Part shown: piece by piece, positions 1 through 64,000 of the stretch
Position numbering within the stretch: position 1 is the stretch's first letter
Layout: each line of letters opens with the position of its first letter
NCBI GenBank assembly: GCA_963969365.1
Contig: OZ017748.1
Span: forward strand, 4,027,001 to 4,091,000
Source: Asterochloris sp. CNOR1
Taxonomy: Eukaryota > Chlorophyta > Trebouxiophyceae > Trebouxiales > Trebouxiaceae
Length of the DNA stretch: 64,000 nucleotides
Direction of reading: 5' to 3'
Position numbers and translations under genes: made by a program
Notes under the pieces: model-generated
What the model saw: the letters and a program-made list of their open reading frames with translations, nothing else
Database searches by the model: none
What the model was told of the DNA's origin: nothing

Positions 1-852
1 ATGGGCTCCTCTGCAGACGCAAGGCCAGTCAAGCTGGCATGGTGGCTGACCACTTCCACCCCTAGAACTTAGCTGGCCCAGACTCTCAGCGCCCTCAGGA
101 ACACCTCCAGGCGCTGCCAGGCGCCCCTCCTGAACAAAAGACAGTCACATACCTACAAAGGGTGCGACCCATGCCAACCTGCAAGACCAGGCTGATGCTC
201 AGAATAGCCCATGTGGTGTGCTTTGCTCAAGTGTGGATTGCAAAGCCAAAAATCTGGCCCAACGAGACCTGTCATGCTGACATGCCCTTTGTCTTGCAGG
301 CTAGCACGCGGTCTGTCTAGTGACAAAGCAACCCACAGGAGCCACTGATCATCATGCGCACAATGTGAGCTGCACCTCACAATCAAAAGTGATAGTGTCG
401 CCTACCTGCAGGAAGAGGCCCTCATCAACCTGCGAGCACCTGCAGACCCATTTGCACAGCTGTTAAGCCCTGCAAACATCAGCACTGCCCAAAAACAGCT
501 GACCACCTCCACATCTGCTGTGACTGCCTGTTGGGACCAGGCCTTTCCCGGCAGAACAGTTGCAAACCAGTGCAAGCGTCCACTGTGCTCTGCAAAAACC
601 CAGTTCAAGTGTCCACTGTGCTCTGCAGCAAACCTGTCCGAGCGTCCACTGTGCTCTGTAAAGAACCCACTTCAAGTGTCCACTGTGCTCTGCAGCAAAT
701 CTGTCCGATGCTCCCCCGTGTTCTGCAAAAACCCAGTTCAAGCGCCCATCGTGCTCTGCAGCAAACCTGTCTGAGCGTCCCCTGTGCTCTCCAAGAAAGA
801 TACAGGGCTTCACACTCTGTGCTGACTCGGTGCACTCTCTCTCTGCCTACAG
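1..852. other. Upstream or intronic sequence before the first recognised reductase exon
   Basis: No exon could be supported here. The ATG at the first base opens only a short frame that stops at the TAG near position 70. An acceptor (ctacag) at 847-852 shows that the exon at 853 is internal, so the true 5' end of the reductase gene lies in this stretch or before the window. The tandem repeat at 573-800 fills part of it. Confidence 0.5.
573..800. repeat. Degenerate tandem repeat, unit about 33 bp (higher-order about 66 bp)
   Basis: The phrase gtccactgtgctctgc recurs about seven times, at roughly 577, 609, 643, 678, 709, 745 and 776. Two linkers alternate: one like aaaaacccagttcaagt and one like agcaaacctgtccgagc. 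This makes a 33-bp unit with a 66-bp higher-order period. Each copy contains a ctctgca(g) run that looks like a splice acceptor core. The array sits just upstream of the real acceptor of the exon at 853. Confidence 0.85.
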
Positions 853-3800
853 GACCAGGCGCTTACCGCCCTGAGAGCAGCCGTGGACACATTCGAGCGC
901 CCAGTCTTCCCCTGCGCCCTCATCGCGGGGGATGTGGCCCTGCTGCACCTGCTGCATGAGCTGGGCTACCTGGCAGACAAGAGGGTCACAGTGGTGTTCA
1001 TCGACACCTTCCACCTGTTCCCAGAGACACACACCTTCCTGCACCAGCTGGAGGTGAGCCAGTGCTGGGGACTGCTGCTGACACTGGCCTGCTCCCAGTG
1101 GAGCACACCCCTTTCGGCGGCTGCTGCCTTTAAGGGTGGTGGGCGCTGACTTGCATAGTGCACACTTTGACAAGCTGGATGTGGGTACCAGAGGTGCCAT
1201 TGCTGTACAAAATTGTGGGGTTTTTGTCAAGAACCCTGGGGTTGGATGGGCTTTTGAGGGGCCCGACTGATCTGGTAGCCTGCTGGGACCAGGGGTGGGG
1301 AAACAAGGGGAGTGGTTGAGTGTGACTGGATCTGCTGCTGATTATCTGTGGGCAGCTGGGTTCAACTGGCCTGCTGGGGGCCAATGCTTGAAAGCTGCAT
1401 CGCCACAGGCCGGGAGCTGCTGGTGCTGCCAAGGACCACGCCCACGTGTATCTGTTGCCTGCCGCAGTGCTTGTCGCAGGCAACAGGGGAATTCTGTTGC
1501 TTGCTACGATGCTTGTGGCAGGCAACAGGGGATGCACTCCGACATGGCAAGCTGCCAGGCTGCAGCTTGGGTGCAGCCTCTGACACTGTCAGCACAGGCA
1601 ACTCAGCTCCCACCAAGCTGGAAGAGAAGGGATGAATCTAGAGGCATCTGGGTCGGCCAGCCTGTCCTGCTTGGGCGGCTGGCAACCTCCACAACCACTG
1701 CTGAGAGGGACATGCAAGGGCACAGCTGGCTTGGTGCAATGCAGACCCGTTCTGCTAAGCTCAAGGATGACAGCTCTGGTCACTGGGTGGTTCGATGGGA
1801 CCATCATGTGGCTTGAGGACACCTTCAGCTGAGCAGAACTAGTTGCGTGCCAAACTTGGCGTAAGCATGTACACTTGCTGTGGAGTATGTGAGCTTTCTG
1901 GCCAGGCAGGTGCAGTTGTCTCGGCATGCACATGGAGCAGGTCAGCAAGCAGTAGCTGCATGATCTCCACGGTTCCAAAGAGGGGGTTGAAGCTGCTGCC
2001 CTGGCTGTCCCATGCAGCTGGATATGGGTTTTTCGAGTCCCTGAACCGATGTCGAGTCGCATGGGACAGCCAGGGGTCTGAGGTCTGTGGACGGCGAGCG
2101 GCCACAATTCAACTTCTTAGCAGGCATCTTGACTGGGCTTGTGGTTCAGGGCTGGTGCACACTTTGACACAGGTCTGGGGATGGCTTGCAGCTGCTCTAC
2201 CGCTCTGCTTCTTGCACGTTGCATATCCCCTGCTGGTTGGTTAGTGCACAGCCCAGGGCTTTGGCGACGCCATGCTGTGCAGGCTGTTGAAGCTGTATGT
2301 GGCCCATCGTGCAGCACGCCCCCAGCTTAAAAGGCCTTGAGCAGGCACCTGTTGAAGCCGGGGGCATGCTGCAACGTTCTTGGGACTTAGGAGGCAGCTG
2401 GGGGTGGGCAGGGGTTGTGAACATGCAGCATGCCTTGCCTGGGTGTGTTGAGCCTGTACTGGGCTACCAGTGTGTGCATCAGCGCCATGCCTGCAGCTGT
2501 CCTGCTGCCAGGTCAGCCACTGGATCCTGCATCCCTGGCAGGCATGTCATACAGGGCCTCTGGTATGGCATGTGTTGATGTCAACATCCATCGGCACCTT
2601 GTGTTACAGCTGCAGTGCTGATACCACCAAGGGGATAGCTTTGGTGCCGTTTGGTGTGCCCAGCATTCTGCAGCTGTGACTGCAGCTGCCAATGGACACC
2701 GTGGATGTTGACGGGACTTGGTGCTGAGGGATCTGGCGATGCAATGCTGCTGTGTTTCAAACACCCCTCCCTGACCGCAGCGGGAAGCCAGTACAGCCGA
2801 GCACAGATGGAGCTCACTGCCTGGGAATCAGTTCACCTGGCTCAACAAGAGCGCAGCGCCCTTCTCTCTGGGCATTCAGTCTCAAGAACTGAGCATGGCG
2901 TTTGCCTTGATGTCAAGTCGGTGGGCAGTTGGCTGTGCCAGCACCCAAGTTGGCCTTCAGCAGTGGGCATGCCTCTGCTTTGCTGTTGAGTGGGTGGGCA
3001 ACTGGCTGTGCCAGCGCAGTTCCTTGATAGCAAAGCTGTCCTGCTGGTGGTGCTGTGGCACCACCAGAGGTGGAGAGTGATGTCAGGGATGCACAGCAGG
3101 GACCGCCTGCAGCCTGTTGTATCAACATAAAGCAATGGGTGACTTCTGAACCCGGGGTAGTTGCAATCACCAGTCACACCAGCTTGAGCTCTGAGGTTCC
3201 ACAAGGGAATCACCCCACACAGGATGGAACCTGCGTGACATAGAGGCCCCACTCTGGGTGCCACCAGGCCCGTAAAACCACAGGCAGGCGCCTCGTAATG
3301 CACACAGTCCTCTGAAGACCATATTAGCTGGTGGCAGCATACGCCTTCACCACCACTGTTACCAGTCCCTGTGAAGACCATTCTAGTCGGCTAGAATGGT
3401 TTTAGAGGGGACTGGAAGCGGTGGTGGTGAAGGCATGCCACCCCCATTCTTGCCAGTTCCTCTACAGACCATTCTAGTCAGCTAGAATAAAGGCATGCCA
3501 CCAACACCGTTACCAGTCCCTTTTAAGACCATATAGCTGACGAGAATAGACTTTTCAGGGAGTGGTAACAGAAGTGATGAAGGCATGCCACCACAATTGC
3601 TACCTATCCCTCTAGAGACCATTCTAGCCGGGGAAGGGCATGCCACCACCATTGTTACCAGTCCCTCTTCTGCAGCCAGAGGCAGAGTGACCCCAGAGCA
3701 GTGGCAGAAGATTCTTCACAAGCTGCTCAGCTGGGCCATTCTACCTGAAGTTGCACAACCTTGCTGGTGGACATGCCTGACGCATGCAGCATGGTGAAAT

Positions 3801-6800
3801 GTGTTCCCTATCTAGCGCTGCACGCTCAACGTGAGAGGGATTGCCCGGTAAAGTCCACACAAGTCCCTGTTGGGCTCCCGAGGATCTGTCTGACTGCTGG
3901 GTGTCAGGTCATGCCAACTCTCAGCGACGCTCTCTTGGGCCTTCTAAGCTCAGTGCTGTTGAGTATTTGCACACAATGATTGCGCACGCGTGCTGGACGT
4001 CTAAGATGCCCAGCTGAGCTCAGTTATATATAAACTCAACAGCTTTGTGTTTTGCTGTGCGTCTCAGAGGTTTGGCGCATCTGTGCAGTCTACATCAGCC
4101 GCCTGAAGGTGCATTGCATGCCGAACCTCTAAGAAGGCCAAGCTGGGCTCAATGGTTTTGAGTATATACTCAATAGCATTAAGTTTAATGTGGGCTTTCT
4201 GGTCAAGCAGGCGCAATACTTCTTGCAGGCAGCAGGGGACGCAAAGGCACAGCTGGCTTGATGCCATGCAGACCTGTTCTGCTGAGCTGTGATGTGTGTC
4301 TGAGATCCATCTCGCTCTGTGCCTACAGCATCAGTGTGGCCATAACGCTGCCATGGCTCCCTTCCGGCCATGTAAAGCTTCATTGGAGGAATCTGAAGCC
4401 AACGGTTTTGTGCACCACCACCTCTTGGAAATCTGAGAATACATTGACAGAATACTCTCACTGCTGCTGCCCCTGCAGGCCAAGTATGGCTTCAAGGCAG
4501 TGACCTACCAGGCAGCAGGTTTGGCAGATGTGAAGGAGTATCGGGCCAAGCATGGCAGCGACCTGTACATCACAGACATGGAGGCATATGACCGCATCTG
4601 CAAGGTGAGGATGGGGGCAAGGGGGTCTGACAGCATCTGTAAGGTGAGCATTGCAAGATGAGCATCTGCAAGGTGCGCATCTACGAGGTGCGCATCTGCA
4701 AGGTGCGCATCTGCAAGGTGCGCATGGGGGCAAGGGGTCTGGTAACACGTTTGGCAGTGGCCAGGGAGGCCTCTGATGGCACATGCAGGGAAACCCTGGG
4801 GACGAGGGATTCTGGCACTGAATTCTGCACATGTGACATCGGTCGTTGCACGGAGGCAGGTGGCTAGAGCTGCAATGGGACTTGTGTGGGCAGGCAAGGT
4901 TGAGGGGTGTCTTGGATGCGTGGGAACCATCAGGCCAACAGGTGTTGGGATGCTGGACGGACAGCAAGGACGTGTGGGCCAGGAGGGAGTCGGCCCAGTC
5001 TTTACTCTGTCGGCAGGTAAACAAACGCATGAAGGCACTGGCAACTGGCAGGTATTAATCATTGCTGAGCAAGGAGTGCACATGGAATGCAGGCCTGTAC
5101 TTCTCAGGGAGTGAGGGCCCTTGACATTGACACCCGTCTGGCTGCACAGATCATGCACAATGTGATCTGATGATCTGATGCTCTCAGCATATCTGCTGCC
5201 ATGCCACCCCATGGAATATGTGTCAGAATGTTCCCTGTGCTGTCTGGCCAGAAGCCTGTGGCATTGACTGTGCTGCCTTGTCACAATGCCTGGCCACCTT
5301 GACATGTGCTGGCATCTTCTGGTATGTCAACATACACATACTGACATTAAGCGCCCCCCCTTGCAGGTTGAGCCGTTCAACCGCGCTCTCAAAGAGCAGG
5401 GGGCAGATGTCATGATCAACGGGCGGCGGCGTGACCACGGCTTTGAGCGTGCATTCTTGGAGGTGCGCTGCTTTTTTGCTAGGCCTGTCAAGGCTGGAAG
5501 GTGCAGCTGGAGGTGTGTTGCTCGCTTGTTGCATCTGTCAAGGCTTGGAGGTGTTCCTAGGGGTGCGCTACTTCCTTGCTGGGTCTTTCAAGGCCTAAGC
5601 TGAGAGCACGCACCTGGCGCTGTCTTGAGCCTGTGCTGGATCTGTCACTCGACACGTTGAAGATGCATTGTGCCGCCTCTGCATCCAGGTCGCCTGTGGT
5701 GTTGTTCCTCCCCGCAACGCTTCTCTGCAGCTTGATCGATGCCATACCGCATGCCAATGTAACGGCATGGCACTTGGGACACTGATGCTTCTGAATGGCT
5801 TGCGGCGCTCAATTGACACTGCATGACCACCGGCAGCCTTTGGTGCACAAATTACCACAATTAGGACTGCAGCCGCTATCTAACCTTTGATTCTTCATCC
5901 TGCATCTAGCTGAGGCTAATTTTGTATTCCAACTAAGATCTGGCATGCCTGACCAAGACTGGTGCTGGTTCATATTCGGCGCCTTTTGAAGCAATGTGTG
6001 CCTCATCGATTTTGGCATTGTCTTCAGGACAACAAGCGTGTTGCCTGCTTGACAATGCCCTTGGTTTCTCTTGACAGCACAGCCACCTCATCCAGGCCCT
6101 GTCAAGTCTTGTCTTGAAAGGGGTCTTACTGAGCACCTTGTATTTGCCCCACAAACATTTGAGCATCATATGGCTGCATGCATGGCTACAAACAGCCAGC
6201 GCAGCATTGCCGTGCTCAGAAGAACAATCCATATCTGTACTGCTCTGGATGCAGGTGTTTGAGGAGGGGCAGCCGGTCAAGTGCAATGCCCTGGCGTACT
6301 GGGAATTCAAGGTGGGCTGCTGGTGTTTGCTGAGGTGTGTCAAGTGCATCTCTAGCACACTAAGATGTGGTTCCTTACTGTCTACACCATTGTTGCCGCC
6401 ATCAATCCCTGTACTTGTAGTGTCAAAACATGCGCTGTGGAACATTGTGATGGCTGGACTGCATCTGCTGGGCAGCCGCATGCCCGATCCTCCTGCTGGA
6501 CTGCTAGGGTTGCCTGCACTTGACAGCTAGATCACCCCTGCAAGACAGGGCATTTCTCACATGTGGGCAGCTGACCCATGCCTCTGCAGGGTGGCCAGGC
6601 CTACCTGCACGCCCGTCAGCTGCAGCACTTCCTCAGCTCTGGGCCATCTCACTCAGCTGGGTATGTACCTGCAGGACTGCTGGGACTACCTGCACGCCAA
6701 CAAGCTAGAGCACCACCCCCTGCACGACCAGGGCTTCCCCAGCATTGGGGATGTGCAGACGACTGTGCCAGTGCCGCAGGACCAGTGGTTTGAGTATGCA

Positions 6801-7016
6801 GGGGAGCGCAAAGGACGCTTCCAGGGGCTGGATCGCACAGAGTGTGGCATTCACCAGCCAGGCGAGTTCAGAGCAGGTTGCATGCATACTCTATGCCTGA
6901 CTACACAGGGGTACGTTGTGGCTGCACAGGAGGGCATGGATGTTGACCAGGACATGTGGAACCACTCGGCTGACTGGGGCCTCCATGTCTTTCTGGCAGC
7001 CCTTGGGGGGTGGTAA
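853..7016 (+). CDS. Phosphoadenylyl-/adenylyl-sulfate reductase, cluster-free (APR-B-like), 5' partial
   Basis: This enzyme would reduce activated sulfate (PAPS or APS) to sulfite in sulfate assimilation, taking electrons from thioredoxin or glutaredoxin, probably in the plastid. Exons: 853-1053, 4479-4604, 5367-5462, 6255-6311 and 6675 onward. The first four are phase 0 and join cleanly. Recognisable landmarks are CALIAGDVALLHLL, VVFIDTFHLFPET, YDRICKVEPFNRAL, INGRRRDHG, YHPL-like HHPLHDQGFPSIGDV, WFEYAGERKGRFQG and the terminal active-site motif TECGIH with its catalytic cysteine. The CC and CxxC pairs that bind the 4Fe-4S cluster in plant APR are absent, as is the C-terminal thioredoxin domain. 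The substrate, PAPS or APS, therefore cannot be fixed from sequence. The last exon is open to a stop at 7014-7016, but a GC-type donor at 6862 (cag|gcgagt) just after TECGIHQP is an alternative end. The N-terminal exon(s) with the transit peptide were not found. Intron 1 is 3.4 kb. Confidence 0.85.
3295..3680. mobile_element. Cluster of fold-back (MITE-like) elements in reductase intron 1
   Basis: The arm at about 3341-3386 and the arm at about 3391-3436 are near-perfect reverse complements around a loop of about 4 nt. The stem apex reads accattctag / ctagaatggt. A second, more diverged fold-back spans about 3488-3590, with gcatgccaccaacaccgtta pairing with the later gtggtaacag...ggcatgcc side. 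A truncated third copy lies at about 3600-3672. All share the motifs gttaccagtccct and aaggcatgccacca. There is no coding capacity. A small non-autonomous inverted-repeat transposon family fits, though local inverted duplication is possible. Confidence 0.7.
4594..4741 (+). repeat. Exon-edge echo array downstream of reductase exon 2
   Basis: The exon end plus donor (atctgcaag|gtgagg) at 4595-4610 is followed by about five more copies of catctgcaaggtgcgcat or close variants, at about 4634, 4662, 4677, 4692 and 4707. A downstream copy of the flank atgggggcaaggggtctg closes the array at about 4723. Each copy carries a potential GT donor. Confidence 0.85.
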
Positions 7017-7655
7017 AGTGAACGGCTGGACCGCACAGTGGCATTCACCGGCCAGGTGAGCTGGGAATATCTCAGACACTGACTGCTTGTGCAGCAATCA
7101 TGTTGGCATCAGCGTTGGCTTCCGCCAGTCAGGTGGGCTGAAGGTATTCAGGCCTCAAATGGGACGTTGTATCAGCTAGCTATGAGAAATAGAGCTGCAA
7201 CGCAGAGCCAGATTGCACTCACCAGCCTGGTGAGCTCCACGTGTACGACCAGCCAGCAGGGCTTCCCAAGGCGACGTGACAGGAAAGGCAGAGATGGCTT
7301 GGTCTCCTGCTGGAAGGCAAGAGCCATCCGGTGTTATAACATTCTTAAAACTCCCGAGCAGCATGTCCCTATGTTTGTGCAGGCACAGATCCTCAAACAG
7401 GGCTTTCAAACATCCGGACTTGACACCGCCTGCCCTCATGAACGGATGAACCTCCCGCTGCAGTGTCAAGAGAGGGCACTGCCTTCCAAGAGACACATAT
7501 GTTGTGAATTGTGCAATTGAATGGTTTGACTTGGCTGCTTCAGCAGTGCCAGTTATGAAGGCAGCGACTTGCACATGAGCATGTGATGCTGAAGCAATGC
7601 ACAGAGAGCAGGGCAGAGTAAATCAAAAGCGAGGGGTGGGCTGAAATGCTTGGCA
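7017..7655. other. Convergent intergenic region with echoes of reductase exon 5
   Basis: This lies between the reductase stop and the NAA30 stop on the other strand. At 7024-7065 there is a close copy of the reductase exon-5 end (ggctgga-cgcacag...cattcacc-gccaggtgag). A weaker copy lies at 7208-7234. In the first echo the donor is the canonical gtgagc, while the real exon has gcgagt. No further coding signal was seen; 3' UTRs are expected. Confidence 0.6.
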
Positions 7656-10601
7656 TCACGGCTCTGGCTGTGCAGCGTTCTGAGCAGATTCCACTGTATC
7701 GCCCTTGGCTGGTGACTTTGAGCTGCTGGGGAATCCTGGCGGCGTGCCCGGCAGGTGCTCTGCATGCTCATGGGGTGCGCCAGGCCCATGGTGGAGGCAG
7801 TTGCAGTCGCCCCCATGCAGGCTGAGCTCTGCCAGCTGCTGGGCAGCACGCTTCTCCTTCTGCTCGGGCGTGAGGGGCAGCAGAAGCTTGAGCCGGTAGG
7901 CGTCCTGGCCATTCAAGTAGTACCTGTGGGGCACAGCATTGACAATCAGGCAATGCCCTCTGGTCAGGCGTCAGGCCTCAGGGGCAGCAGTGGCTTAAGC
8001 TTGTAGGCATCCCAGCCATTCAATGAGTACCTGCAGTGTGCACAGCACAGCTCATGATCTTAGTTCAGGGCATGGCGTTGGAGCTGCAGGTGACTATACT
8101 GCCCTGGCACAGCGGGAGTACTCCTGCAGGTGCACTGTTCGTCGACGCGGACAGTGCCAACAGACATAGCATCACTTGTTATGACTGATGCAAAGCTGGC
8201 ACTGTGGAAACAAGATTTTTTAGCAGGACTTGAGCACACTCCCAATTCTCCCAAGATTGTCAATGGGTGCAATACCTGGTGCTATCAGAAGTATTGCAGC
8301 ACATGTGAGCACATTGTTTGATGCATCGTGCTTCTCACCTGTGCAGCCTCTCATCTTGATACAAAGCCCGTGTTCTGGTTCCCAAAGCATGAACCAGCTT
8401 GTGCACCACGGCAATGCAGCGCCCGCACATGTGCATGCAATTCGTCCAAACGGAAGCCCACTCTTGGGTGTAGATCTCTGATGCCGTGACAGTCCATCAC
8501 ACGCACCCAGCTTTGCAGCAATCTCAGTGGAACTTGGCACCTCACTTGTGAAGCCGCTTGTCCCGGATGAAGCCCAGGTTCTGGTACAGGGCAAGGGCCC
8601 CTGTGTTGGTAACCTCAGCCTCCAAAACCACCTCCTCACAGCCACCCACCACCATCTGCTGAATGGCACGCTTCACCAGCTCAGTGCCTGCAGCCATTAG
8701 GCACACATCCTCAAGGCCCCCTGAACCGCAACCTGTCTCAGCAGCTCTACTCACTCACGCTCAGATCCCTGCACACTCTTCCCACTACCAGCATGGCTGC
8801 TTGCACAATCAGCAGCTGGCCCATATGCACAGCACCAAGCTCACCCACTCAATAGCCCTGCGAGGCTTCCCCAGCGCCAGCACAGCTGCACACGTTCAGC
8901 GCTTTCAACAAAGGAACATCAGCGCATACCAGCAGCCCCGCTAACCCGCACGCAGGGACGAGCAAGGTTTTGCCTCCGCCACCACTAGCATGGCTGCTCA
9001 CAGTCAGCGCAACCCAAGAGCTGTTCACCCACGTTTGGCGCCCTGCAGGGTTCCTGCACCCCACAGGCTGCTCCTGCAGCCTGCCCACGCCTTGTTAGCA
9101 AACAGTGGCTCTATTCTGTGTGTGCAAAGCAACACCTGGTAATTATGGATGAAGGTGTAATGTTTGCCCCAACATCACCACACAGACACGTCCAGGGCCC
9201 CCAGAGTTGTACATTTACGTCACCTGCCCGCTGTTCACACCTGCACCCGGATGCATGCTGTCACATCTACCCTCGTGACAGCCTCACTCACCCACACCCA
9301 AAGCCCTGTAAGGTTTCTCCACCACCAGCATGGCCAGGTAGCCGCGCATCATGTTGGTGCACTTATGGCGGTCCATCTTGCAGACCACAGTGCCGAGGCA
9401 GTGACCGCTGTCGTAGGCCAGGAAGGCTAGTTCCGGCCAGATGTGCAGGAAGTACCTGGATGGGGTGCAGAAGATAGCAAGGTCCACGGTGAGACAGCGG
9501 CGCAGTTGGGATATGAAACAGTCACTCTCAAGAGGAGAACACAAGGTAGCTGAAAGCAGAGGGATGTTCCTCCACAAGTCTGGTGCAGCGTCTTGATGAC
9601 TGAATGCCCTCCCCACACCTGCGCCAGCAAGAAAAAAAATGAAAGGAAACCAACCCTTGGGCCAGGGCCTTAAGGCCTGTCTGAGCCAAAGATGCCGTCC
9701 TGCTGCCCTCAGTGGAGCAGGCGCAAGTGCTTAGCCAGGAAGGCGACTTTATGTCTCCTCGCAATTTTTTAGGGAGCAGCAATGCACGTGCAGCAACTCC
9801 TCACAGGGGTATGCTGTCGCAGCTTTGGTGCTCCCACTCTGAGACAGAGGCCAGAGCCTTCATAGGCAGACTGCAGGCTCTGCTCACAGCATAGCAGCAG
9901 TGGCCTACCTGTATGTGAAGATGGAGTAGGGCTCGCTGAGCTCATTGTCCACCAGCTGCATGACCGTCTCCAGATCCTGCTCCCCGCGGTACTGCGGCAG
10001 AGCAGGGAGCAGCAGATGCTCAGAACATTATAGTGGCGCAACAAGAGGCATCTGGTCAGCAGTGACGCGGCAGAGAGAATCAGCTGCCATGTGTTACACC
10101 GCTTGTCCATTAGATTATAAGGTCCTGCAACGCTGGCCAACTGTCTCACAAGAGACCCTAGCTGACAGCTGGGGGCTGTTATGTATACTGCATCAGAGCA
10201 GGGCCATCAGGTCCATCGTGACTGTGGCGTCCATGTTTGGTAAGCTCAGGCTCTCACGTGCAGACAGCCAGTGCTGCTGCAAGTTTTGGCGGCCTTCAAG
10301 CACCCAACACCCTCCTGCTTTGTGAAGCCAGTCCAAGAATCGCCTGTTGGCAAGTCAGGCAGCAACGCAGTACATTTGCAAGCTGCATAGGATCATGAAG
10401 TAGGTCCGCCACTATCGCTGTGATGGCGGCAGACAATTGACATGCGACCGACAAGGCAGAAATGGCCCTGCTCAATTGCAGCACTCAGCTGACCTGCTTG
10501 TACTCAATGCGGCGCCTCTTGGTCTCATGCCCCTGTTGATCTGCAGCCTGAGTTCCAAATGGGAGAGAGGTCACAGGCAGCACTGCTTCTTGCGTGGCCA
10601 T
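7656..10601 (-). CDS. NAA30: N-alpha-acetyltransferase 30, catalytic subunit of NatC
   Basis: This GNAT enzyme would transfer acetyl from acetyl-CoA to the N-terminal Met of nascent proteins beginning with Met plus a hydrophobic residue, at the ribosome with NAA35 and NAA38. Five exons on the minus strand: 10601-10494, 9991-9909, 9455-9292, 8687-8546 and 7923-7656. They join in phase to 254 residues. Family hallmarks in order: LSEPYSIFTYRYFLHIWPEL (about 55-74), VCKMDRHK, RGYLAMLVV, the acetyl-CoA loop RALGVG (114-119, R-x-x-G-x-G, split by an intron), EVTNTGALALYQNLGF and RDKRLHKYYLNGQDAYRLKL. The C-terminal tail of about 70 residues is low in conservation. The start is the ATG at 10601, giving a 36-residue first exon ending KRRRIEYKQ that leads into YRGEQDLETVM, as in plant homologues. 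It is divergent from the rhomboid gene. Confidence 0.93.
7978..9000 (-). repeat. Exon-edge echoes in NAA30 introns
   Basis: At 7978-8043 there is a copy of the acceptor side of NAA30 exon 5 (shared ggggcagcag, cattcaa, agtacctg and gcacagca blocks) next to the real junction at 7881-7938. Three degenerate copies of the donor side of exon 3 (real site 9284-9345: actcaccca...gccctgtaagg...ccaccagcatggc) lie at about 8752-8800, 8836-8892 and 8945-9000. None extends a usable reading frame. Confidence 0.8.
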
Positions 10602-10719
10602 GCCCAGCTGAGGGATCCCCTTGTCTATGAGACAGGCCTGAGGGACCATTGCAATTGCATGCACACCCCTGGCATGCTTTAGATTTCTACAGGTCAAACC
10701 TTACATCTGCACCGGGGCA
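10602..10719. promoter_or_regulatory. 118-bp bidirectional promoter between NAA30 and the rhomboid gene
   Basis: The two proposed start codons face away from each other across only 118 bp. An imperfect palindrome attgcaattgcatg with a ccatt flank sits near the centre (about 10648-10662). There is no TATA box. A possible acceptor (tttctacag, about 10684-10692) leaves open an extra non-coding 5' exon for the rhomboid gene. Confidence 0.55.
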
Positions 10720-14240: not shown

Positions 14241-15124
14241 GCGCTGCAACCATGCTTTGATTCTGACCGATACGCAGCAATAGCATCAATGAACCCAAAC
14301 TGGCCAATCCCTGTTGCCCTGCATGGTTGTGGAGCAGCAGCATCATGGTGAGCAGCAGTGAATATTCAATTTGGCAGAGTCCTGCCAGGATCTTGTGCAT
14401 TCAAATCAGCATGACACGCATGGTGCCCTTTGTAATTCGCTGACTCGTCTTTCCAGAGGGCAGAATTCTCAATGGAGGCCACATCTCTACGTTGCCAATG
14501 TGAGGCATGTAGTCAGTCAAGGGTCCTGTGTTTTCTAACTCAGACCAACTAAGTACCGTTAGAGACTCTGGGCATGAGTTTCTGCACAAAGTCTGTTTGG
14601 CACTGTGGGCTGGAAGCAAGTCACATTGAGGAACTCAAGACCAGAAGGACATTCAAGCTCCCCTGCCCAGTGCAGCACATCCAGGTGGCCTCCCGCTGGC
14701 CTGGCAACATGTCATTACATCACACGCTGTGTGACACCCCACAAAGTGTCACCTTGTTACAGGACAACCTCCCCTCAGAATCAGGCTCAGGCTAGAGATC
14801 AATGACACCTTTGCAGCGTCTGAAGTTCATAGCGGTGCTGTCTGAATTGCTGAGCAGGGTCTTGAGAGCCACCGCACCTTCGAGTCCCCCTCCAAGTAGT
14901 TGCATCTGGCACTAATGCTGTTGTTGCAGTCACATGTAGCACTATTGTCATTTGCAGCTTGTAATGACAGTACACAATGCGACAAACATACGGCCAGTGG
15001 GCTTGAGGTGAGCCCCTGTTGGCACTCATCAAGACAGGAGATGTATGTTGTCTCAGAAGGGCAACATGCATGTCCTGACTTGATGAGTGCCAGACAGGGA
15101 GACGTCCACACAAGATGCAGAACA
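14241..15124. other. Convergent intergenic region between rhomboid and kinase-like genes
   Basis: No conserved coding sequence was seen. The minus-strand frame at 14827-15111 shows no family motif. The notable element is the long hairpin at 15021-15091. 3' UTRs of both neighbours are expected here. Confidence 0.5.
15021..15091. repeat. Long hairpin, about 30-bp stem with 11-nt loop
   Basis: The left arm 15021-15050 (starts ggcactcatcaag) pairs with the right arm 15062-15091 (ends cttgatgagtgcc). There are four mismatches in 30 positions around the loop tctcagaaggg. The flanks cctgtt and agacagg extend the pairing slightly. It lies 34 bp beyond the proposed stop of the minus-strand kinase-like gene, so it would fall in that gene's 3' UTR. 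It could be a small-RNA precursor, an mRNA stability element or a tiny fold-back element. Confidence 0.75.
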
Positions 15125-16408: not shown

Positions 16409-16474
16409 GAGGCGCAATAACTTTGTTGGTGCAGCTAAAGGCTGGTAAGAAGCTTGGCAGTCACCTTGAAGTGT

Positions 16475-17298: not shown

Positions 17299-17670
17299 CC
17301 TGGCCTGCCTTTCTATGGAGTGAGATTGAATGACTCTAATTAGGCACACAGGCCTAAGCTCACTGATATGAACACTCTCAAGAAGTCTCTTCCGGTGCGC
17401 ATCAACACCATGACTAGGCTCTGTCGCGAAGCAGGCCGTTGAGTTTCACGCCTTGTTGCGGGGCGTCACATGGCTTACTATAGGTCAGTTCCGATCTGAC
17501 AGTATGCAAAAAGCACTGTGCAACGGATGCTGGTGGAGGAAGCTTGTTGCGCTTTATCTGCCCCAAGTGACGTACTTGCACAACCTTCCCTGTAAAGTGC
17601 AGCAGCTGGCCTGTGACCATCTGCACATCTTTATTTGGTTGAGCAGCACATTGCTGGCAGTCCAACCAAC
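17299..17670. promoter_or_regulatory. Divergent upstream region of the unidentified gene and the bZIP gene
   Basis: These 372 bp separate the two opposing start codons. The bZIP start is the ATG at 17671; an upstream in-frame TTG at 17635 is not preferred. No TATA box or clear repeat was seen. Confidence 0.45.
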
Positions 17671-51452: not shown

Positions 51453-51599
51453 CAAGCACCCACCCCCAGACCGTCCGTTGAGCAACAATATGAAAATTTT
51501 CTTTTCAGCAGGTTCGCGCTGACATGCAATCGCTTTCTTTGATCTGCTGAGGTGCATTGGCCTGCTAATCAATAACGCTGGCCGGAGGACGTTGAGCCG
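51453..51599. promoter_or_regulatory. 147-bp gap between DCAF8-like stop and SPS start
   Basis: The two genes are in tandem. The gap holds an AT-rich run (caatatgaaaattttcttttc, about 51485-51505) and no obvious repeat. The 3' end of the first gene and the promoter of the second must share it, unless the SPS transcript starts inside the upstream gene. Confidence 0.5.
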
Positions 51600-54500: not shown

Positions 54501-57500
54501 AGCTGAGGCGGTGGGGGCCGATGTGTTTGATGGGCGCGTGGACGGGCTGTACATCATTCTCATCAGCCTGCACGGGCTGGTGCGCGGGGACAAGATGGAG
54601 CTGGGCAAGGATGCAGACACCGGCGGGCAGGTGTGTGGTGTTTACTGTTGGCAGCCTAGTGCACCTGGGGGTGACGCGGGCAGGCTACTGACCTGCCTCG
54701 GGCAGGATGGGCTCTGGGGATCAGCTGGTGGCAGGGATCCAGGCAGCCAGGTGGCTGCCTTGCTGGACTGGCTCAGGGGAGTCAGGTGAAGCCTAGCAAG
54801 GATGCAACACAGGCAGGAGGGTGTCCCATGGTGGCAATGATGCTTTAGGGCTGTAGTCCAGGGCAGCTGAGGTGCACAAGGGAACAAGATGGGGCTGGGC
54901 AGGGATGCAGGCACCAGCACGCAGGTTGTTTTCACAAGGACTCGTGACGGCAGTCAGTTGAGCACCATTTCTGCCAGTGTCACCGGCAGAATGCTTGGTT
55001 GGAGCTGTGGCGTGGGGAGTGTGCGAAGATGGTCAAAGCAGGCACGTATGGGTAAATGAGCAGCTTGGGTGGTGATGCCTGGAGACGCCTGCTGCTGACT
55101 TGCACCTTGGTGGTCAGTGGCAAGTTGCATGTGGTTGCCAGCAGTGGGCTTCAGTGGAGACCAACCTCCTGAGGAGATGTCTGCAGGTCCTTCATGCATG
55201 CTGCTGTGGATGTCTGCATCTTCCCAGTGCCCCTCAGGGCTGCAAGTCATCCACTGCATGCCGCCACTCCACTGCGTGCAGGTCAAGTATGTGGTGGAGC
55301 TGGCCCGCGCACTGGGCCAGCACCCGGCTGTGTACCGGGTGGACCTGCTGACCAGGCTGATCAAGGACCCCAAGGTCAGCAGCAGACCTGGTCTTCTTTG
55401 CACAATGTTGTTCTCTGAGTGTGTCTTCCAGGGCTGGGTGCTGCTCTTTGTAACTTGATGTCCACGTTACTGTTTTCTGTGATCTCCTCCTTGGCAGGCT
55501 GTCTGCTGCCATGAAGCGATTCAGCATTAAACACGATTCTCAGGGAGCAGCTGCTTGTCTGGCATGGGAGAGGCCCAGGCATGCCGCTGCATTGAGAACA
55601 CGCAGCACACCATAGCAACCGCTCAGCCTGCTGTGGCGCAGGGTGCATAAGTGTTGTGTGCTGAGAGCTGCGCCTGTAGTGCAGGTCGACAAAACCTATG
55701 GGGTGGAGGAGGAGTGCATTCTGCAAGCCACTGGAGCAGAAAATGATCTTGGGGGGACCTACATTGTACGCCTCTCTGCAGGGCCAGACGAGCAGTATCT
55801 CAGGTCAGGCTTTTTTGACTGTATGCACCGTAAACCTGAATGCGCTGATGGGTGCACCATCAGACTTGCCTACTTCAGCAACATGATGAGCCAGGCCAAA
55901 AGACACCTTGGTGTCAGAAATCCAGACAAAGCATTGTCTGAGGGCAGGCGCTGCCACTGACAACGCTGTGAATCGCCAACATGGCACCAGCTTTGCCCAG
56001 CTGAGAAATGCTCTACCTGTCAAGCAGCTGCAGTGACCGTCAAGCAAATCCAGCTGCTGCAGAGGGATCTTCAGGCTGGCATCACTGCCAGCGGGAAAGT
56101 GCTGCTGGACATTCCTCACAGAAAGCACAATCATCAATACAATGCTTTTAGGATCAGATGCAATGCATGCTACGGCCCACGTGCTGCCAGACCTGCCTCT
56201 TTCCCTATCGCTGATCTGATGCCGGCCCTGGTGCAGGAAGGAGAAGCTGTGGCCCCATGTGCGTGAGTTTGCCGATCGCGGCATTGCCCATGCCAAGCGC
56301 ATGCTGACAAAGCTGGCGGAGCAGAAGACGCCCTGCGAGCTCTATGTGGTGCACGGGCACTACGCAGACGCAGGGGAGGTGGCAGCGCTCATGAGTGCCA
56401 CCCTCAGCGTAGACATGTGCATGACGGGGCACAGCCTGGGGCGCAACAAGCTAGAGCATTTGCTGGCGTCAGGCACTGTCAGCAGGTGAGGCTGATGAAG
56501 CTGTTGCTCATGTGGGGCTTGTGCTCTGCGCTGCAGTGCAAGAATGCTCCTGACCTTGGGGCCTCTTTGCACAGCCCCTATATGAAACTGCGTGAAGAAG
56601 TCCCAGAGTGAATGGCTGCCCGGCCTGTACAGCTGATGGGCAGGGTTTGCTGCTCCTAGGCTGAAGCTTTAAAAACGTCTGCAGGTCTGGATTTGGGCAC
56701 ACCTACAGGATTGACCCGCAGCTTGGCTGGTGCAGCTCACAGGCTAGAGTGGCTGAAGCGCGTATGCTCTCGCAGGACTCATTTGAGCACATGTACAGCA
56801 TCAACTTGCAGCTCATATCGTGCAGGGTTGGCTGCTCTCATGTTCAAATGTTTGGGGCTCCTTCGGGTCTGAGATAGAATACACCTATAATGTGCGACTA
56901 CAAGAACGTCTGCAGTGGTCGAACTGCAACTTCTGTTCCTGCAGGTCAGTGAGTAGTCAGCAGCCCCTGCACACACATTTCACACCGGCCGCTTCACCTC
57001 AAGCCATGATCAGACAGCTTCTAAGCTGGCTGCCTCTTGTGCAGGGCTGAGATGGAGCACACCTATATAATGAACCAGTAGGAGGAGTCTGAGGTGCCAT
57101 GCATACGCAGGGTGGCTACTTCTACTTAAGTGTCATGTTCCCTGCAGGGCTGAGCTTGAGCACACACAGAGGGCAACTGCCAAGCAGTCTGCAGGAAACC
57201 TGAATCCTAACTGGCTCTGCAGGGCTGAAATCGAGCACACCTACAAGATCAACAGGCGGGTGGAGGCTGAGGAGCGGGCGCTGGACTCAGCCATCATGGT
57301 CTTCACCTCCACTGAGCAGGAGATCGACGAGCAGTGGGGGCTGTATGATGGGTGAGTAAGTTTAGTATCTCAGCTGTACATGCCTTGATTGTCTGCTCAT
57401 CCTATGGGGCTGCACAGTAGTGAGCACACCTTGAAATGAGCTGAAGAGGACTGCATTCCTGTATATAGACGGGGCTGGCCATCAGCAGCAGAGCCTGCAT

Positions 57501-60500
57501 GTTGGGTGCAACGGCGCGTAGCCCCATCCATACCTTGTGGGCAGCAGAAGATGCTAGCCCTGCTGACGCCTCCCAGATGGCATCTGCGCTTTTACCATAT
57601 GTGGCAGCATGCACACGAGCAGGGCACTCTTAAGGATTGCAGCAATGTGATGACGTTGCCTCCAGCCCTTCAGCTGACCACATTGAGCTTTTCTCATGAA
57701 GACACTACCAGGGGAGTGCACTGCTCCTCAGAGAACGTCAAAGAGACATGCTTGCTCTGGAGCCATGAAACAATCTCATGAGCGCCCGAGGTGTTGCCAG
57801 ACACCAAGCTTGACTTGTACCCCTGCAGATATGACAGCAAGCTGGAGAATGTGTTGAGGTACCGGAGGCGCACGGGGAGGCACATGCCCTTCATGAACGT
57901 CATCCCACCTGGGCTGGACTTCAGCAGCTTGAAGGTCAGTGGCTGGAGCCTTTGCCCAATGGCTGTGAAGAGCAGCTTCCTTTTTGATCTAGCCTGTGCC
58001 TAACACACAGGACACAAGCCCGGCTGATGACTTCAGCAGCTGGAAGGTACATCCGAGACGGGGCTGTGCCTGGTATGCATACTGTGTCTTGGCCATGCCT
58101 GCACCCCCCGCATTGGAAGCATCAAGCACCCCACCCTCTCTCAGCCTACAGAGAGGCATGCCATGGCTACCAGCTGCAGTTTCGCATCCCTGCTGGCTTG
58201 TCGGGCTCTTCAGCGTGCTGCATGTTGCCTGCCTGCTGTGCATCCTGCAGTCTTGCACAAGTTGCAGCGCCAAAGCCTGCGCACTCTGTGCGCAGGTGGA
58301 CCTGCCTGAGGACCCAGCCGTGAAGGAGATGCTGAGCCACAAGCCAGCTTATGGGGCTGTCACCACCCCCAAGGCAGATGCCAATGGCAAGGACGGTGAG
58401 CCCTATGCTCTGCAGCCCTGGTGCATCAGCTGCAAGCAAGTGGCAGCAGCTGCCCTGGTCACCCCATCCAGAGGCAAGTCTCAGGCAAGCAGGCAGGCAC
58501 ATCTGAGCCTGCCAGCCCCTGCTGCAAAGCCTCGCCTGTGCTGGACCTCAGAAAGACGACATAGAAACTCTTTGCAGTTGCCCAAGGGGCTGGGGTGTCA
58601 CTGAAGGCCAGAAAGTTGCCCCAGGCAAGCAGCATCAGGTCTGGCCCAGCCCCCAAAGCCCTCAAGCTTGGAAGGGAAAGCCATTCTCTCCCCTGCACTC
58701 TGGCTGTGCACCTCTTGAGAGCCTCACTAGCTGCGCCTGCACTGGACGCCTGCACACTGGGTCCCCAAGTGCTCAAGCCCATCGTGCTGGACAGTCCTTG
58801 TTAGTGCTGTTGTGTCCTCAAGAGCGCCTACCTGCCCACTTGTGCTGCTCCCTGCTGCTGAGCAGATTCCTTTAACTCCTCCGGGTCCATGGGGAGCCCC
58901 AGCAGTCTCGAGAGCCTTTCCCCAAACTCCCTGGAAGTGCATTCCCCATTCTACCTTCACGCGTACCGTGGTAGGCTACCCTTTCCTCCCATTCTGCACC
59001 ATGCCTGGCTCAATGCCTTGGCAGTGGCAGTCTGATGTTTGAGGCCAGGCACAGCTGCAACCTGTGCAGGTCCCATTATTTCAGGGCCCGTTGCCTGTCC
59101 ACTCTCTCTCTCACAGGACTTGACTCACCTTGCAGTGCCACTAAGGCTGCTCAGTGGACGCTTCCCTGCTGCTGTGTGACGTGTCCATTCTGCATCTGCT
59201 GTGACCACTCTCTGCCCGCTCAGGGCCCTGAGGGGTGAGCTATGCACACACCTGCTCAGCCCCAGCCCTCGCATGTTCACAGCTGCTGCATGGGTACTGT
59301 GCTGGGCACGCTGGGAGCTGTGCTCGGCATGCAGGCATCTCCCTCGGGCATCTAAAAGCATCAGTGATCTGTACTTTCCATCAACAGCTATCCTTTTGTC
59401 ACCCAAATCACACTGCTAAGCTCAGCCATGCACACCAGCATGTTGCCTCCTCCAACTGTCTACTCAATCCGCCTCTGAGTCTCGTTCTTTTCTGACTCGC
59501 ATGCCCGCCCCTGTCCCTGCAGCCAGCTTCGATGAGAGGAAGCCCCCCTCCCGCGGCGCCTCTCTGTCCAAGATTGGCAGCGGCATCCCCTCCCAGAAGC
59601 AGCTGAGCATCCCCAAGCCTGGCGTGCACCACCACATGAGCGGCGTCAGCATCCTGGGGAATGCCCAAGAGGAGCCTCCCATCTGGAAGGTGGGCCATCT
59701 TCCTTGAAGTGTTGGATTGGAGAACTCTCGGCTGAGTCTCACACAAAATCTTGCTGTGTCTGTTTGAGGTGTGCATGGGGCCACCTGCCCTCTGTGGGAG
59801 GGAGGGCAGCCGTTCCTTCTCAGATGGTCTTGTGCATGCTGCATGTTGCCATTCTTAAAAATTGACTTAATCAGGTGACAGTTGTGCAGAGGTAGGAGGT
59901 TGGACCATACATAGCATCTGGCTCATCGTATAACAGTTGCGGACATGCTAGAGAGTCCTATTCAGTCCTGTCCTTGCATGCGCCCTAGCCATGGCTGATG
60001 ATCAGCATAGTGAGAGGTTCAAGCTGCAACTAGAGTTCAGGGCTATTGTGGAACCATGACATGACCCAGCTGCGCTACAAGCATATGATACTCCTGTCTT
60101 GGCTTGAACATCTGGAACTTCACTAGCCTGGCAGCAAACGACTGCAGTGGTTGACCTCTGTCACCTGGTGCTCCCTATGGAGCCTCTCAATGCATCTGCT
60201 GAATCTGGTGTACCTTAACAGATATGGCTTCCTACATGCTTCTGGATGGTATGCAGCAAAGTTGCAGATGCTGTGGCCATGCATGCTCCGACTACGTCTT
60301 GACGTTCCACAGCTGCACTTTGATTGTGCTGCGCAACTCCTGCAGGCCAGCCATCCTGGTTGATGGCCGCCTGTGCTAAGTTTAGTTTCTGGGTCCCCTG
60401 GGGGACATCACACTGACTGATCTCCACCTCCCTCTCCTGCAGGAGATCGCTCGTTTCCTGCGCAACCCGCGCAAGCCAGCCATCCTGGCCATGAGCCGCC

Positions 60501-63500
60501 CAGATGCCAAGAAGAACATCACCACCCTCGTAAAGGCCTTTGGGGAGAACAGCACCTTGCGGGAGCTGGCCAACCTGGTGCTCATCATGGTGAGTTGCAG
60601 TGGATGTGAACAATGTGGGCGGTGAGCAATACCTTTAAGGAATTGGCCAGATCTGCCCCTAAACAGGGTAAACTATGTGTGCCCAGCAGCAGTGGTTACG
60701 CTGGGATTTTTGAATCGAACAGCACCGGTGTCTTTGGGGAGCATGGCACCCCCTGCAGGGGCTGGCCAGCCTGGTGCTCTTCATGGTGCATTGTCTGCAG
60801 TTCTTGGAAGTGAAGAGGAGCACAGGGCTGTACAGGGCACAGCCCTGCAGCTCTAGCCATCTACAGGTAGCCTCATGGCCCGAGCTGGCCAGGGCCTGCA
60901 AGACTTGAGCAAAGCCTGGCCCAAGCTGAGCAGGGCCTGTCTCACACTGCTGGCGCTGCAGGGAGGCACACAATATGGCTGCTGCTCAAGTAGCATGCAA
61001 GCATTTGCCTGGAGCTTTCAAGCAGGCGTCAAGCCTGTCCGGCCCCAGCATGCATGCCCCAATTGCAGGTCCACGCACTGTAGCCAGGGGCATCAGGATT
61101 CCCCACCCCTCGTGCACAGCAGCTGACATGCATGCCCCCTGCACTGCAGGGCAACCGGGACAATATCGATAGCATGGCGGGCGGCAGCCAGAAGGTGCTT
61201 AACCAGGTGCTCAAGCTGATCGACATGCACGACCTGTACGGCAGCGTGGCCTACCCCAAGAAGCACCAGCAGAAGGACATCAGCGACATCTACCGGCTGC
61301 CCCTGGCCACACGGGGCTGCTTCACCAATGTCGCACTGCAGGAACCCTTTGGACTGACAGTGATAGAGGTGAGCACCCTTATCGCGGGCTTTGGGGTCGA
61401 GAGTTGGGTGCTGCAGCATAACACATGATATTGTGTATTGATATGGTGGACACCCTACAGTAAAGGCTTTGGTCGACTGACCCTGGGCGTGCAGGGCTGC
61501 TTCAACCAAAGTGGCGCTGCAGGGTCCCTACGTGCTGACTGTTGGCAACAAGGGGTCAACAGGGGGCTGGTGCTGGCCATGGAGTTGCTTGCTGGTGCAG
61601 CGCTCAGATGGCAGGGACTGCCAGGGACCTGCATACCCATCGCACAGCCTCTGCAGGAGTGCATGCTGTTTGTCGCCATCCTATGCGGTGTGCCTGACCT
61701 TTGTGAAATCATTGAATGTAGCCTACTGTGATGCAGATCAGTCACGACTGCCACCAACACCACAAAGGGTGATGCTTAGAAAACATTGGTTGGTGTGCCT
61801 GGTCCTTCGTCCCTGGTTGCATCCTCTGGTGAGGATTGTCCCTGTCTGCAGGCAGCCGCCCATGGCGTGCCCACAGTGGCCACAAAGAATGGTGGCCCTG
61901 TGGACATCATGGCGACGCTGCACCACGGCCTACTGGTGGACCCCACCAGCAGCACAGATGTGGCAGACGGCTTGGTCAAGTGAGTCAACGTACTGCTTTG
62001 GAAGGAGCTGCTGCTCCAGGGCAGATTCTTGCTTGAAGTCTGCACAAGCAGGCCGTCTCAAACATCATGCTGGGCAGCTCATTCAGCACAAGGGCTGTCC
62101 TGGCAGGGCAAGCATTGCATGGTGCCCACAGTCCTTCTATTTACCAGCCATCAGACAACAGGACTAGCCTCATGGCACTCTGATGAGCCCTACCAGCGGT
62201 ACAATTGCAGCAGATGTCCTGGTCAGCTGACTCTGATGCAAGAGTGTTGCCTCATGCTCTTGGGAGGGCGAAATTGTGCACAGAAACATCATGCGCCCCC
62301 ACTTCTGGCAGCGCTGTGTTGCCTGTCCACCTCTGATCATCAAAGGGTGTACATGGTCAGCTGGCAATATGTGTGTGCTAGCTCAAAGCCTCACAGCTGA
62401 AAAGTGAATGTGCCTTTGCGCAGATGCTTGGACTTGGGTGGAAAAGGTACATGGGACGAGTTCTCGCGCAACGGCGTGAAGAACATCATGGCCTACAGCT
62501 GGCCCAGCCACTGCAAGAAGGTGCTAGAGTCGCTGGAGAGTGAGAAGCGGTTCTTGCAGCAGCACAAGGTGGGCTGCCATCTAACTTCACAGCACTTTCT
62601 GGGGGTGAGGTGTACTGCGCCCAGTAGTGGAATGTCATGGGAGTGCAGAGCTTTACCCCGTTTGGTGTGCGGGTCCTGGCGAGCAGGCCGACCTTTTGCA
62701 GCTAAGGTGGGTTGTTCTTATTCCCCCATAAGCAGCTGATTTGGCTGTGGTGCACAGAGCGTGCTGGCAAACTGGAAATCAGCTGGTACAAAGGCGACGA
62801 AGCAGTTGCGCCTTGTGCAACATCATAAGGGTATTGGCAAGTTTAAGCAGAGCTCTTGGTCTTGAGGTGTCAGCATACATTAGGGGCCAAGCCTTTGCAG
62901 AGGGTAAGAAGTGTCTCCTTCAGCAGCACCAGGTGGGTTGCACCCAGGCACCAAAGTGCAACAAGGGACAAGTTATAGTCAGGGTGCACCCATCACAGGC
63001 TGCTGTATGCTGAGCCAGAGACAGATTGTCCGCAGGGTGAGGACGCATCTTCAACCCTGAAGCATTGTGCCATCCGGCCCGCAGGTGCAGCAAATGCGTT
63101 TGAGCAGAACATGAACTGCCTTGGGCAGGGCCTGCCCTGCTCAGGGCGCATTCACTTATCCAAAGTCATTCCATGCACTTAAAGTTTGCCTGCAGATATG
63201 GATGTGGCTGAGCAGCAGCTGGGAAGCCTCCACAGGCTGCTGCTGTGCCTGCTCTGCCAAAGCTGGGGCTGAGCGCCAGCACTCCCGTGTGTTGTTGCCT
63301 TGAGCACACGCAATGTCCGACTTTGCTATGCCTTTCAACCTGAGGATGCACATAACTTGGCTGATTGGGAGCCGGGATTCAGCTCATCAGGTTCAGCAGC
63401 TTTGCTGCTGACTTGCCCACTGCTTGAGCTTTTTTCTTGTGCAATGCTGCAGACGCACGAGACTCAGCTCAGCGGGAGCTGGGATGCCGCTACAGGCTTT

Positions 63501-64000
63501 TTCAGTGCCCCTGACAGTGTACCAAAATTGCCATGGCACAAGCTGGGACTGAGCATTAGGTCTTCCATGTGCTGGGTGCTCTTCCAACAGTGTTGTCAGT
63601 CTGCCTGCCATCCCGTGGTCATGAACAGGTTGTGCCTCTTTGCCCACAGATGCACAAGACACGGCTGAGTGGGAGCTGGGACGCCTCCACAGGCGGGGGA
63701 TCGACGATGGAGCGCATGGGCAGCACGCCCTTTCCCTCCAAGGACAAGCCTCTCACCCACAGGGTGTCACGGGACAGGGAGGCCTTCTGGAAGGCGGCTG
63801 AATCAGAAGCGACCCCTAAGGGCGGGGTGGGCACTCCTAGGGCACCAGAGGCAGGTAGGCTCCTGAGGTGGTCCATGGTCAGTAGACATGCTTGCTTGCG
63901 GGTACAGGCGCAGTCGATGAACAGTTTCGAATTTTGAAAGGCATTGATGTATGGATATGCAGCTCCTCAGGGCCTCGGCGTTCCAGCGGCTCTCAAGTGT
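51600..64000 (+). CDS. SPS: Sucrose-phosphate synthase, 3' partial
   Basis: This GT4 retaining glycosyltransferase would make sucrose-6-phosphate from UDP-glucose and fructose-6-phosphate in the cytosol. Visible exons: 51600-51656, 51827-51985, 52869-52997, 53620-53794, 54040-54110, 54451-54630, 55282-55374, 55685-55803, 56237-56485, 57223-57351, 57829-57934, 58296-58395, 59523-59689, 60443-60589, 61150-61368, 61852-61979, 62424-62568, 63650-63854 and 63963-64000 (cut by the window). All phases agree, giving 872 residues. The start [19 protein letters not shown] matches the NDWINSYLEA-type N-terminus of plant SPS. Catalytic landmarks: [31 protein letters not shown] (about 367), [35 protein letters not shown], the PPIW linker, [29 protein letters not shown], the E-motif [17 protein letters not shown] (about 690-706) and [14 protein letters not shown] (in exon 4) is a possible regulatory phosphosite. 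The donor at 51986 is GC. The C-terminal phosphatase-like domain is not reached. Confidence 0.95.
53350..53435 (+). repeat. Echo of SPS exon 3 donor side
   Basis: The end of exon 3 (atgaagcgtaacagggcgcgcgtcaa...gccactctggccgctgagcag|gtcag, 52938-53001) recurs about 430 bp downstream at 53364-53425 (atgatgcgcaacagggtgtgcgtcaacgagcaggg..gctggcactctcgctgtcgagcaggtggag). Indels break the frame. Confidence 0.88.
54780..54935 (+). repeat. Echoes of SPS exon 6 donor side
   Basis: The real end is aagatggagctgggcaaggatgcagacaccggcgggcag|gtgtgt (54592-54636). A close copy lies at 54887-54930 (aagatggggctgggcagggatgcaggcaccagcacgcaggttgtt). A weaker one lies at 54793-54825 (agcaaggatgcaacacaggcaggagggtgtcc). 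Confidence 0.88.
57030..57250 (+). repeat. Acceptor-side echo array of SPS exon 10
   Basis: The real junction ctctgcag|ggctgaaatcgagcacacctacaagatcaac (57215-57252) has two copies upstream, with the same acceptor-like lead: 57041-57080 (tgtgcagggctgagatggagcacacctatataatgaac) and 57144-57175 (ccctgcagggctgagcttgagcacaca). An older partial copy (gggtctgagatagaatacacctataatgtg) lies at about 56863-56895. Confidence 0.9.
60340..60800 (+). repeat. Echoes on both sides of SPS exon 14
   Basis: An upstream copy at 60341-60371 (ctcctgcaggccagccatcctggttgatggccgcc) resembles the interior of exon 14 (aagccagccatcctggccatgagccgccc) fused to an acceptor. The downstream block 60715-60800 (cgaacagcaccggtgtctttggggagcatggcacc...ggctggccagcctggtgctcttcatggtgca) resembles the exon end and donor (60540-60596). 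Confidence 0.82.
61480..61545 (+). repeat. Echo of SPS exon 15 interior
   Basis: The segment gggctgcttcaaccaaagtggcgctgcagggtccctacgtgctgactg (61494-61541) copies the exon-15 stretch gggctgcttcaccaatgtcgcactgcaggaaccctttggactgacag (61314-61360), about 180 bp downstream. The copied exon contains an internal cactgcag that resembles an acceptor. Confidence 0.85.
63190..63700 (+). repeat. Acceptor-side echo array of SPS exon 18
   Basis: The real exon start atgcacaagacacggctgagtgggagctgggacgcctccacaggc (63650-63694) is preceded by two copies. One lies at about 63452-63500 (acgcacgagactcagctcagcgggagctgggatgccgctacaggc, with gctgcag before it). The other lies at about 63197-63241 (atatggatgtggctgagcagcagctgggaagcctccacaggc, with cctgcag before it). 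A related echo of exon 17 (gagggtaagaagtgtctccttcagcagcaccag|gtgggttgc) lies at 62899-62941. Confidence 0.9.

Follow-up and report, generated by a model that had tools for sequence, protein, structure and literature searches.

Introner elements are dispersed families that add intron sequence genome-wide. Tandem duplication is reportedly the main source of short insertions, a view associated with Messer and Arndt in 2007 and Vaughn and Bennetzen in 2014. In sets of primate and fly insertions, the accessible part of a 2008 report classes ~80 to 90% as simple or complex tandem duplications (PMC2374710). Intron gain through duplication across an intron-exon boundary has already been published, and the accessible text describes a potato RdRp gene in which one such duplication makes a new intron (PMC4974935). 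In rice, error-prone break repair leads to tandem insertions of 10 to 1000 bp, according to the accessible part of a review (PMC7407515).

Here, we describe recurrences of exon-edge sequence inside the neighboring introns of the lichen alga Asterochloris, which we call echoes. As far as the accessible parts of those sources go, the comparisons are as follows. Like the primate and fly insertions, the echoes include local direct copies that abut their template, but their units are mostly 60 to 220 bp, some are in arrays, and they are seen at large divergence by way of conserved exon edges. As in the potato gene, the duplicated segment spans an intron-exon boundary. However, existing introns seem to have been lengthened here, repeatedly and in many genes, rather than one new intron made. 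The echoes share with the rice insertions their size range and their local, tandem or partly tandem arrangement. Introner elements also add intron sequence genome-wide, whereas five of our echo queries matched only themselves or a neighboring copy, in a search that diverged copies could have escaped (see below). Among the matches listed in a literature search of titles and abstract openings, with subscription journals mostly outside it, we found none in which arrays of duplications across junctions were described as supplying intron length genome-wide.

The window is a stretch of 64,000 nucleotides (G000:C3:4027001-4091000) from a 56.4-Mb genome in 21 contigs. We added 200 kb from a second contig, C1 (C1:1000001-1200000), and 50 kb from a third, C7 (C7:600001-650000), for a total of 314 kb with a GC content of ~58%. 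The accessible part of a published description of Asterochloris gives 56 Mb, 56 to 62% GC over 98% of the genome, and nine introns per gene (PMC6652019). A self-trained hidden Markov gene finder with length models, predicting without RNA, produced 46 models with 585 introns (median, 278 bp) in the 314 kb, and the predicted introns had the splice consensus TGCAG at acceptors and AG/GTGAG at donors. Seven pieces of the window models, hand-split where genes had been fused and taken in whichever frame had the fewest stops, gave open translations with either no stop or a terminal one alone. A domain scan of five of the seven found PAPS reductase, GNAT acetyltransferase, rhomboid, WD40 repeat, and sucrose synthase GT-B domains. 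Part of the GT-B piece matches sucrose-phosphate synthase at 406 bits, which is below the whole-protein cutoff of that model. Throughout the 314 kb, 59 of 584 predicted introns (~10%) have a GC donor rather than GT, as in the donor after 51985 in the window. The GC-donor consensus differs (A at +3 is 0.61, versus 0.13 in GT donors), which suggests that these GC-AG introns are real. To our knowledge, ~10% is an unusually high share.

The original prediction, made from the window, had listed 15 ranges in which exon-edge sequence recurs in an adjoining intron, and in all 15, an exon edge close by recurs as a copy that extends across the predicted junction. For each range, 0 of 1000 intron pieces from C1 and C7, of up to equal length, reached its score; the five nearest edges were tried and the best one kept as the query, the null carries no correction for that choice, and some null pieces were shorter than the long ranges. 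The loci are on the forward strand unless stated otherwise. In the PAPS-reductase-like gene, the donor edge of exon 4479-4604 (source, 4593-4629) is echoed 113 bp away at 4706-4741, in a locus (4593-4741) with a 15-bp subrepeat at 4633-4725, and the donor edge at 6861 (source, 6826-6868) is echoed 198 bp away at 7024-7062 (locus, 6826-7062). A tandem array of 33/66-bp units (562-797) lies directly upstream of the first predicted exon of this gene. Three inverted repeats with short loops (1999-2075, 3343-3434, and 15020-15092; arms of 31 to 44 nt, 82 to 90% complementary) resemble small hairpin elements in noncoding DNA. In the GNAT-acetyltransferase-like gene, on the reverse strand, the donor edge of exon 9292-9455 (source, 9278-9334; locus, 8742-9334) has echoes 261, 340, 448, and 537 bp into the intron, and the best echo inside the range first given as 8745-9000 is 8829-8886. 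The rhomboid-like gene (locus, 13134-13679) has a copy of 13134-13195, at the donor edge of exon 13046-13190, at 13617-13679, and a second pair at 13336-13442 and 13549-13644. The best-matching edge for the listed range 13295-13685 came from a predicted exon, 13365-13451, that is possibly false; the pair 13134-13195/13617-13679, found at 78% by blastn of the window, backs that range independently.

In a putatively bZIP-like gene, the acceptor edge of exon 18199-18368 (source, 18159-18205; locus, 18056-18206) is echoed at 18097-18143, with a period of ~62 bp. Farther along, a tandem array with a period of ~114 bp (25618-25980; copies at 112, 226, and 346 bp) has as its last unit the acceptor and start of exon 25921-26077, and a near-complete tandem duplication (26440-26535/26544-26637; locus, 26440-26637) lies over the acceptor of exon 26602-26689. 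A reverse-strand, multicopy array (30713-31147) has echoes of the donor of exon 31118-31573 at 73, 221, and 364 bp. Two duplications are exactly adjacent: 45062-45137/45138-45215 (86%; locus, 45062-45215), over the acceptor of exon 45192-45310, and the 59-bp pair 45264-45322/45323-45381 (92%; locus, 45258-45381), over the predicted donor 45310. The remaining loci are in the sucrose-phosphate-synthase-like gene. Donor 52997 (locus, 52931-53424; source, 52939-52999) is echoed at 213 bp and at 425 to 429 bp (53364-53424), donor 54630 (locus, 54586-54929) at ~292 bp (54887-54929) and more weakly at 191 bp, and donor 62568 (locus, 62536-62941; source, 62536-62577) at 62900-62941. The acceptor of exon 57223-57351 (locus, 56678-57275) has echoes at 75, 181, 448, and 539 bp, and that of exon 63650-63854 (locus, 63206-63696) has them at 197, 304, and 454 bp. 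Exon 60443-60589 (locus, 60329-60793) is echoed at both edges, with an acceptor pair at 60329-60359/60458-60488 and a donor echo at 60730-60793.

We compared 928 edges with their own introns; these were the edges of 464 introns of at least 150 bp, leaving out one intron of more than 3000 bp and the 120 of 584 that were shorter than 150 bp. At a score of at least 110, 88 edges matched their own intron, compared with 1 for the reverse complement, 1.6 for shuffles, and 1.0 for introns of other genes, so the predicted preference for the adjoining intron over swapped ones was clear. At a score of at least 140, the numbers were 50 versus 0, 0.0, and 0.0, and at least 90 gave 141 versus 21, 21.2, and 21.6, respectively. 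These controls rule out chance or base composition as the source of the echoes. A donor query of 60 exon and 40 intron bases scored at least 100 in 26 of 82 introns in the window, 24 of 304 in C1, and 8 of 78 in C7, and the acceptor query did so in 16, 21, and 11 of the same introns. Therefore, echoes occur on all three contigs sampled and are not confined to the window. Duplication loci numbered 6.9 per 10 kb in the window, 4.2 in C7, and 2.3 in C1. Echo counts are uneven among genes beyond chance (0 of 2000 shuffles were as uneven).

The copies had also been described as local and exon specific, unlike an introner-like family, and this held as far as we searched. Five queries run against the whole 56.4-Mb genome revealed no dispersed family, returning themselves and, for three, a neighboring copy; this search scores only the best candidates and missed known local copies (~76 to 78%) for two queries, so diverged distant copies could escape it. 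Self-comparison of the window by blastn gave 47 direct pairs, 44 of them at 50 to 500 bp, and 1 inverted pair; C1 had 0 inverted pairs. One 55-bp direct repeat (1707-1761/4236-4288; 87%; 2.5 kb apart) is the only one in this comparison whose copies are separated by 500 bp to 3 kb. Direct ungapped segments scoring at least 110 numbered 213 at offsets of 20 to 800, 3 at 2000 to 2780, and 1 at 5000 to 5780, a ratio of near to far of ~70 to 1 (213 versus 3). Junction echoes were 60 to 220 bp from their source in 80 of 96 cases. Among 38 pairs with at least 80% ungapped identity, 7 abut with a gap of 0 to 1 base after gapped extension (two come from one array); an abutting pair in C1 (112572-112650/112651-112729) is 94% identical. 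The rest of the 38 have decayed, contain gaps, or are not in tandem. After extension, 21 of the 38 align over at least 75% of the period (some at an identity of 0.55 to 0.7), and 17 align over less. Some echoes may be nontandem local insertions or arrays that have lost middle copies, given alignments well under one period. Spacing is nearly regular in some introns, as in the 112/226/346-bp array of the window and in another at 89/178/261 bp, and an array in C1 has copies at 110, 223, 407, and 517 bp. Of 112 junctions that have an echo, 79 have a single copy.

The echoes were expected to be anchored on junctions rather than on exon centers, and when whole exons were used as queries, 95 of 101 echoes came within 5 bases of the junction. 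However, a tandem copy of exon DNA can enter an intron only across the junction, so such echoes fit random tandem duplication, and this anchoring cannot separate duplication targeted to junctions from duplication at random. For the 95, exon depth divided by the smaller of period and exon length had 10th, 25th, 50th, 75th, and 90th percentiles of 0.20, 0.32, 0.48, 0.63, and 0.87. This is close to what uniform breakpoints give, with breakpoints spread through exons. In 403 introns (those under 200 bp were left out), 50-base tiles centered from -25 to +12 of the junction matched the adjoining intron at a score of at least 95 in 5 to 9% of introns, compared with 2 to 5% for intron-interior tiles and 0 to 0.5% for exon tiles at least 100 bases in, with 0 to 2 control matches per row at this threshold.

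Recurrent local tandem duplication, in units mostly of 60 to 220 bp and not aimed at splice sites, probably produced the echoes, and conservation of the exon would make them seem bound to junctions. Among echoes scoring at least 115, the match rate by source column was 0.71 at codon position 1, 0.76 at position 2, 0.66 at position 3, and 0.68 in the intron (position 2 versus 3, P = 3e-7). This order, 2 > 1 > 3, indicates that selection preserves the exon copy as the echo decays. We classified 179 duplication events, kept from 222 merged pairs after scores of 100 to 109 were dropped (the locus counts below have the same basis). Those joining a junction to noncoding DNA numbered 75 (34 at random), and the others were within introns (49; 74 at random), between pure exon and noncoding DNA (21; 30), with both copies partly exon (6; 24), within exons (20, many of them diverged repeats; 11), or intergenic (8; 6.5). 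Merging gave 111 loci, of which 78 were junction, 25 noncoding, and 8 exon, compared with 60.3, 43.4, and 7.3 at random. The evidence for purging of duplications inside exons is mixed: pairs with both copies partly exon are scarce, wholly exon pairs are in excess, and exon-only loci are as expected.

An excess at junctions could mean that some feature of splice sites, such as breaks linked to transcription or R loops or a sequence preference, starts duplications there. The peak of the tile profile at the junction favors this, as does the event-level excess of 75 versus 34, since in a constant-rate simulation junction events were only 1.23- to 1.35-fold more readily detected. The remaining excess calls for either a formerly higher rate of duplication or a degree of preference for junctions. 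However, breakpoints are distributed throughout the exon, and the excess is absent from the most similar copies. Loci with a best identity of at least 85% comprised 12 junction, 9 noncoding, and 1 exon, versus 10.2, 9.9, and 1.8 at random; the junction share of nonexon loci was 0.57 versus 0.51 ± 0.10 in this small class (22 loci), with identity an imperfect clock because junction pairs set a conserved copy against a free one. The share then rose to 0.76 versus 0.60 ± 0.08 at 75 to 85% identity (35 loci) and 0.83 versus 0.60 ± 0.07 below 75% (54 loci), a trend that survivorship predicts. Therefore, the proposal that junction anchoring marks a special junction-spanning process is not supported, and we give targeting of junctions little credence. 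Two other parts of the original prediction fared no better. Copies were said to diverge increasingly in order, but the nearer copy outscored the farther one in 38 pairs and was outscored in 30, which is not significant (by identity, nearest versus farthest was 21 versus 15). An ongoing process had also been proposed, but the simulation, with its constant rate, expected at least 85% identity in roughly one-third of detectable events, if not more, and we saw this in 8 of the 75 junction events and 10 of the 49 within introns. A copy this similar is present at 22 of 111 loci, again below the simulation, so a steady rate does not fit.

It had also been suggested that decoy splice sites accumulate as a by-product, and they do: GT is kept in 29 of 43 spanning donor echoes and AG in 24 of 36 acceptor echoes. 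Echoes might even persist because these sites serve as alternative or decoy sites, a reading that we consider less probable still than junction targeting. The junction GT or AG was kept in 48 of 68 echoes, versus 118 of 246 for the same dinucleotides elsewhere in the alignments (P = 0.001), and acceptor TGC columns match at 0.88 (89 of 101), a figure that includes any source-column effect. However, much of this retention follows from the unchanging source column: GT/AG match at 0.82 versus 0.76 for codon position 2 (P = 0.085), so the retention may be no greater than the neutral level. In addition, periods that are a multiple of 3 are no commoner than chance, with the three remainders modulo 3 at 29, 36, and 31 of 96. 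The introns themselves could instead have been born by duplication of AGGT-containing exon segments (Rogers-type intron gain), and the duplicated units do include exon edges with GT or AG. However, both edges were echoed in just 9 of 87 echo-bearing introns (4.9 expected if independent), and subtracting the arrays leaves an intron of normal size, so the duplications seem to enlarge preexisting introns and we regard this origin as highly improbable. As had been proposed, the duplications do lengthen introns: 102 of 584 have arrays, and junction arrays scoring at least 100 make up 21,880 of 196,228 intron bases (11.2%). The median echo-bearing intron is 479.5 bp, or 252 bp minus arrays, versus 245 bp for introns without an echo (P = 0.35), in a subtraction that is partly circular because longer introns offer more room. 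At its threshold, there were 10 matches in swapped introns versus 112 in own introns, so about a tenth of matches would arise by chance.

Under recurrent local tandem duplication, duplications would arise wherever they fall and be tolerated inside introns. When a unit lies across a splice junction, the copy next to the exon would keep working and the other would become intronic. Each such duplication would lengthen the intron by one unit, and repeats could leave up to four recognizable copies. The exon copy, under selection at the protein level, would be a lasting master copy, whereas two purely intronic copies would drift past detection sooner, so that diverged echoes would look junction specific. 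We infer a repair or replication error behind the duplications, splicing of the exon-bordering copy, the history of the rate, and the extent of selection against exon-internal duplications. What is new here is the prevalence in one genome, the repeated copies at exon edges, and a sign that exon edges, being conserved, can serve as rulers by which old intron growth becomes visible.

Roughly one in six introns in the 314 kb (102 of 584) carries an echo. A more ambitious reading, which we think unlikely although less so than the alternatives above, is that introns in this lineage owe most of their length to recurrent tandem duplication. Junctions would then be mild hot spots, exon edges the master copies, and introns a readable record of growth, and the competing splice sites left at each step might affect splicing. 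As a caution, intronic repeats can become enriched at splice sites through geometry and survivorship. Where most intron sequence came from can usually no longer be read, since after an old duplication the two copies both drift. When a unit crosses an exon edge, selection keeps one copy from changing, and this provides a ruler with which intron growth may be detected and dated past the usual horizon.
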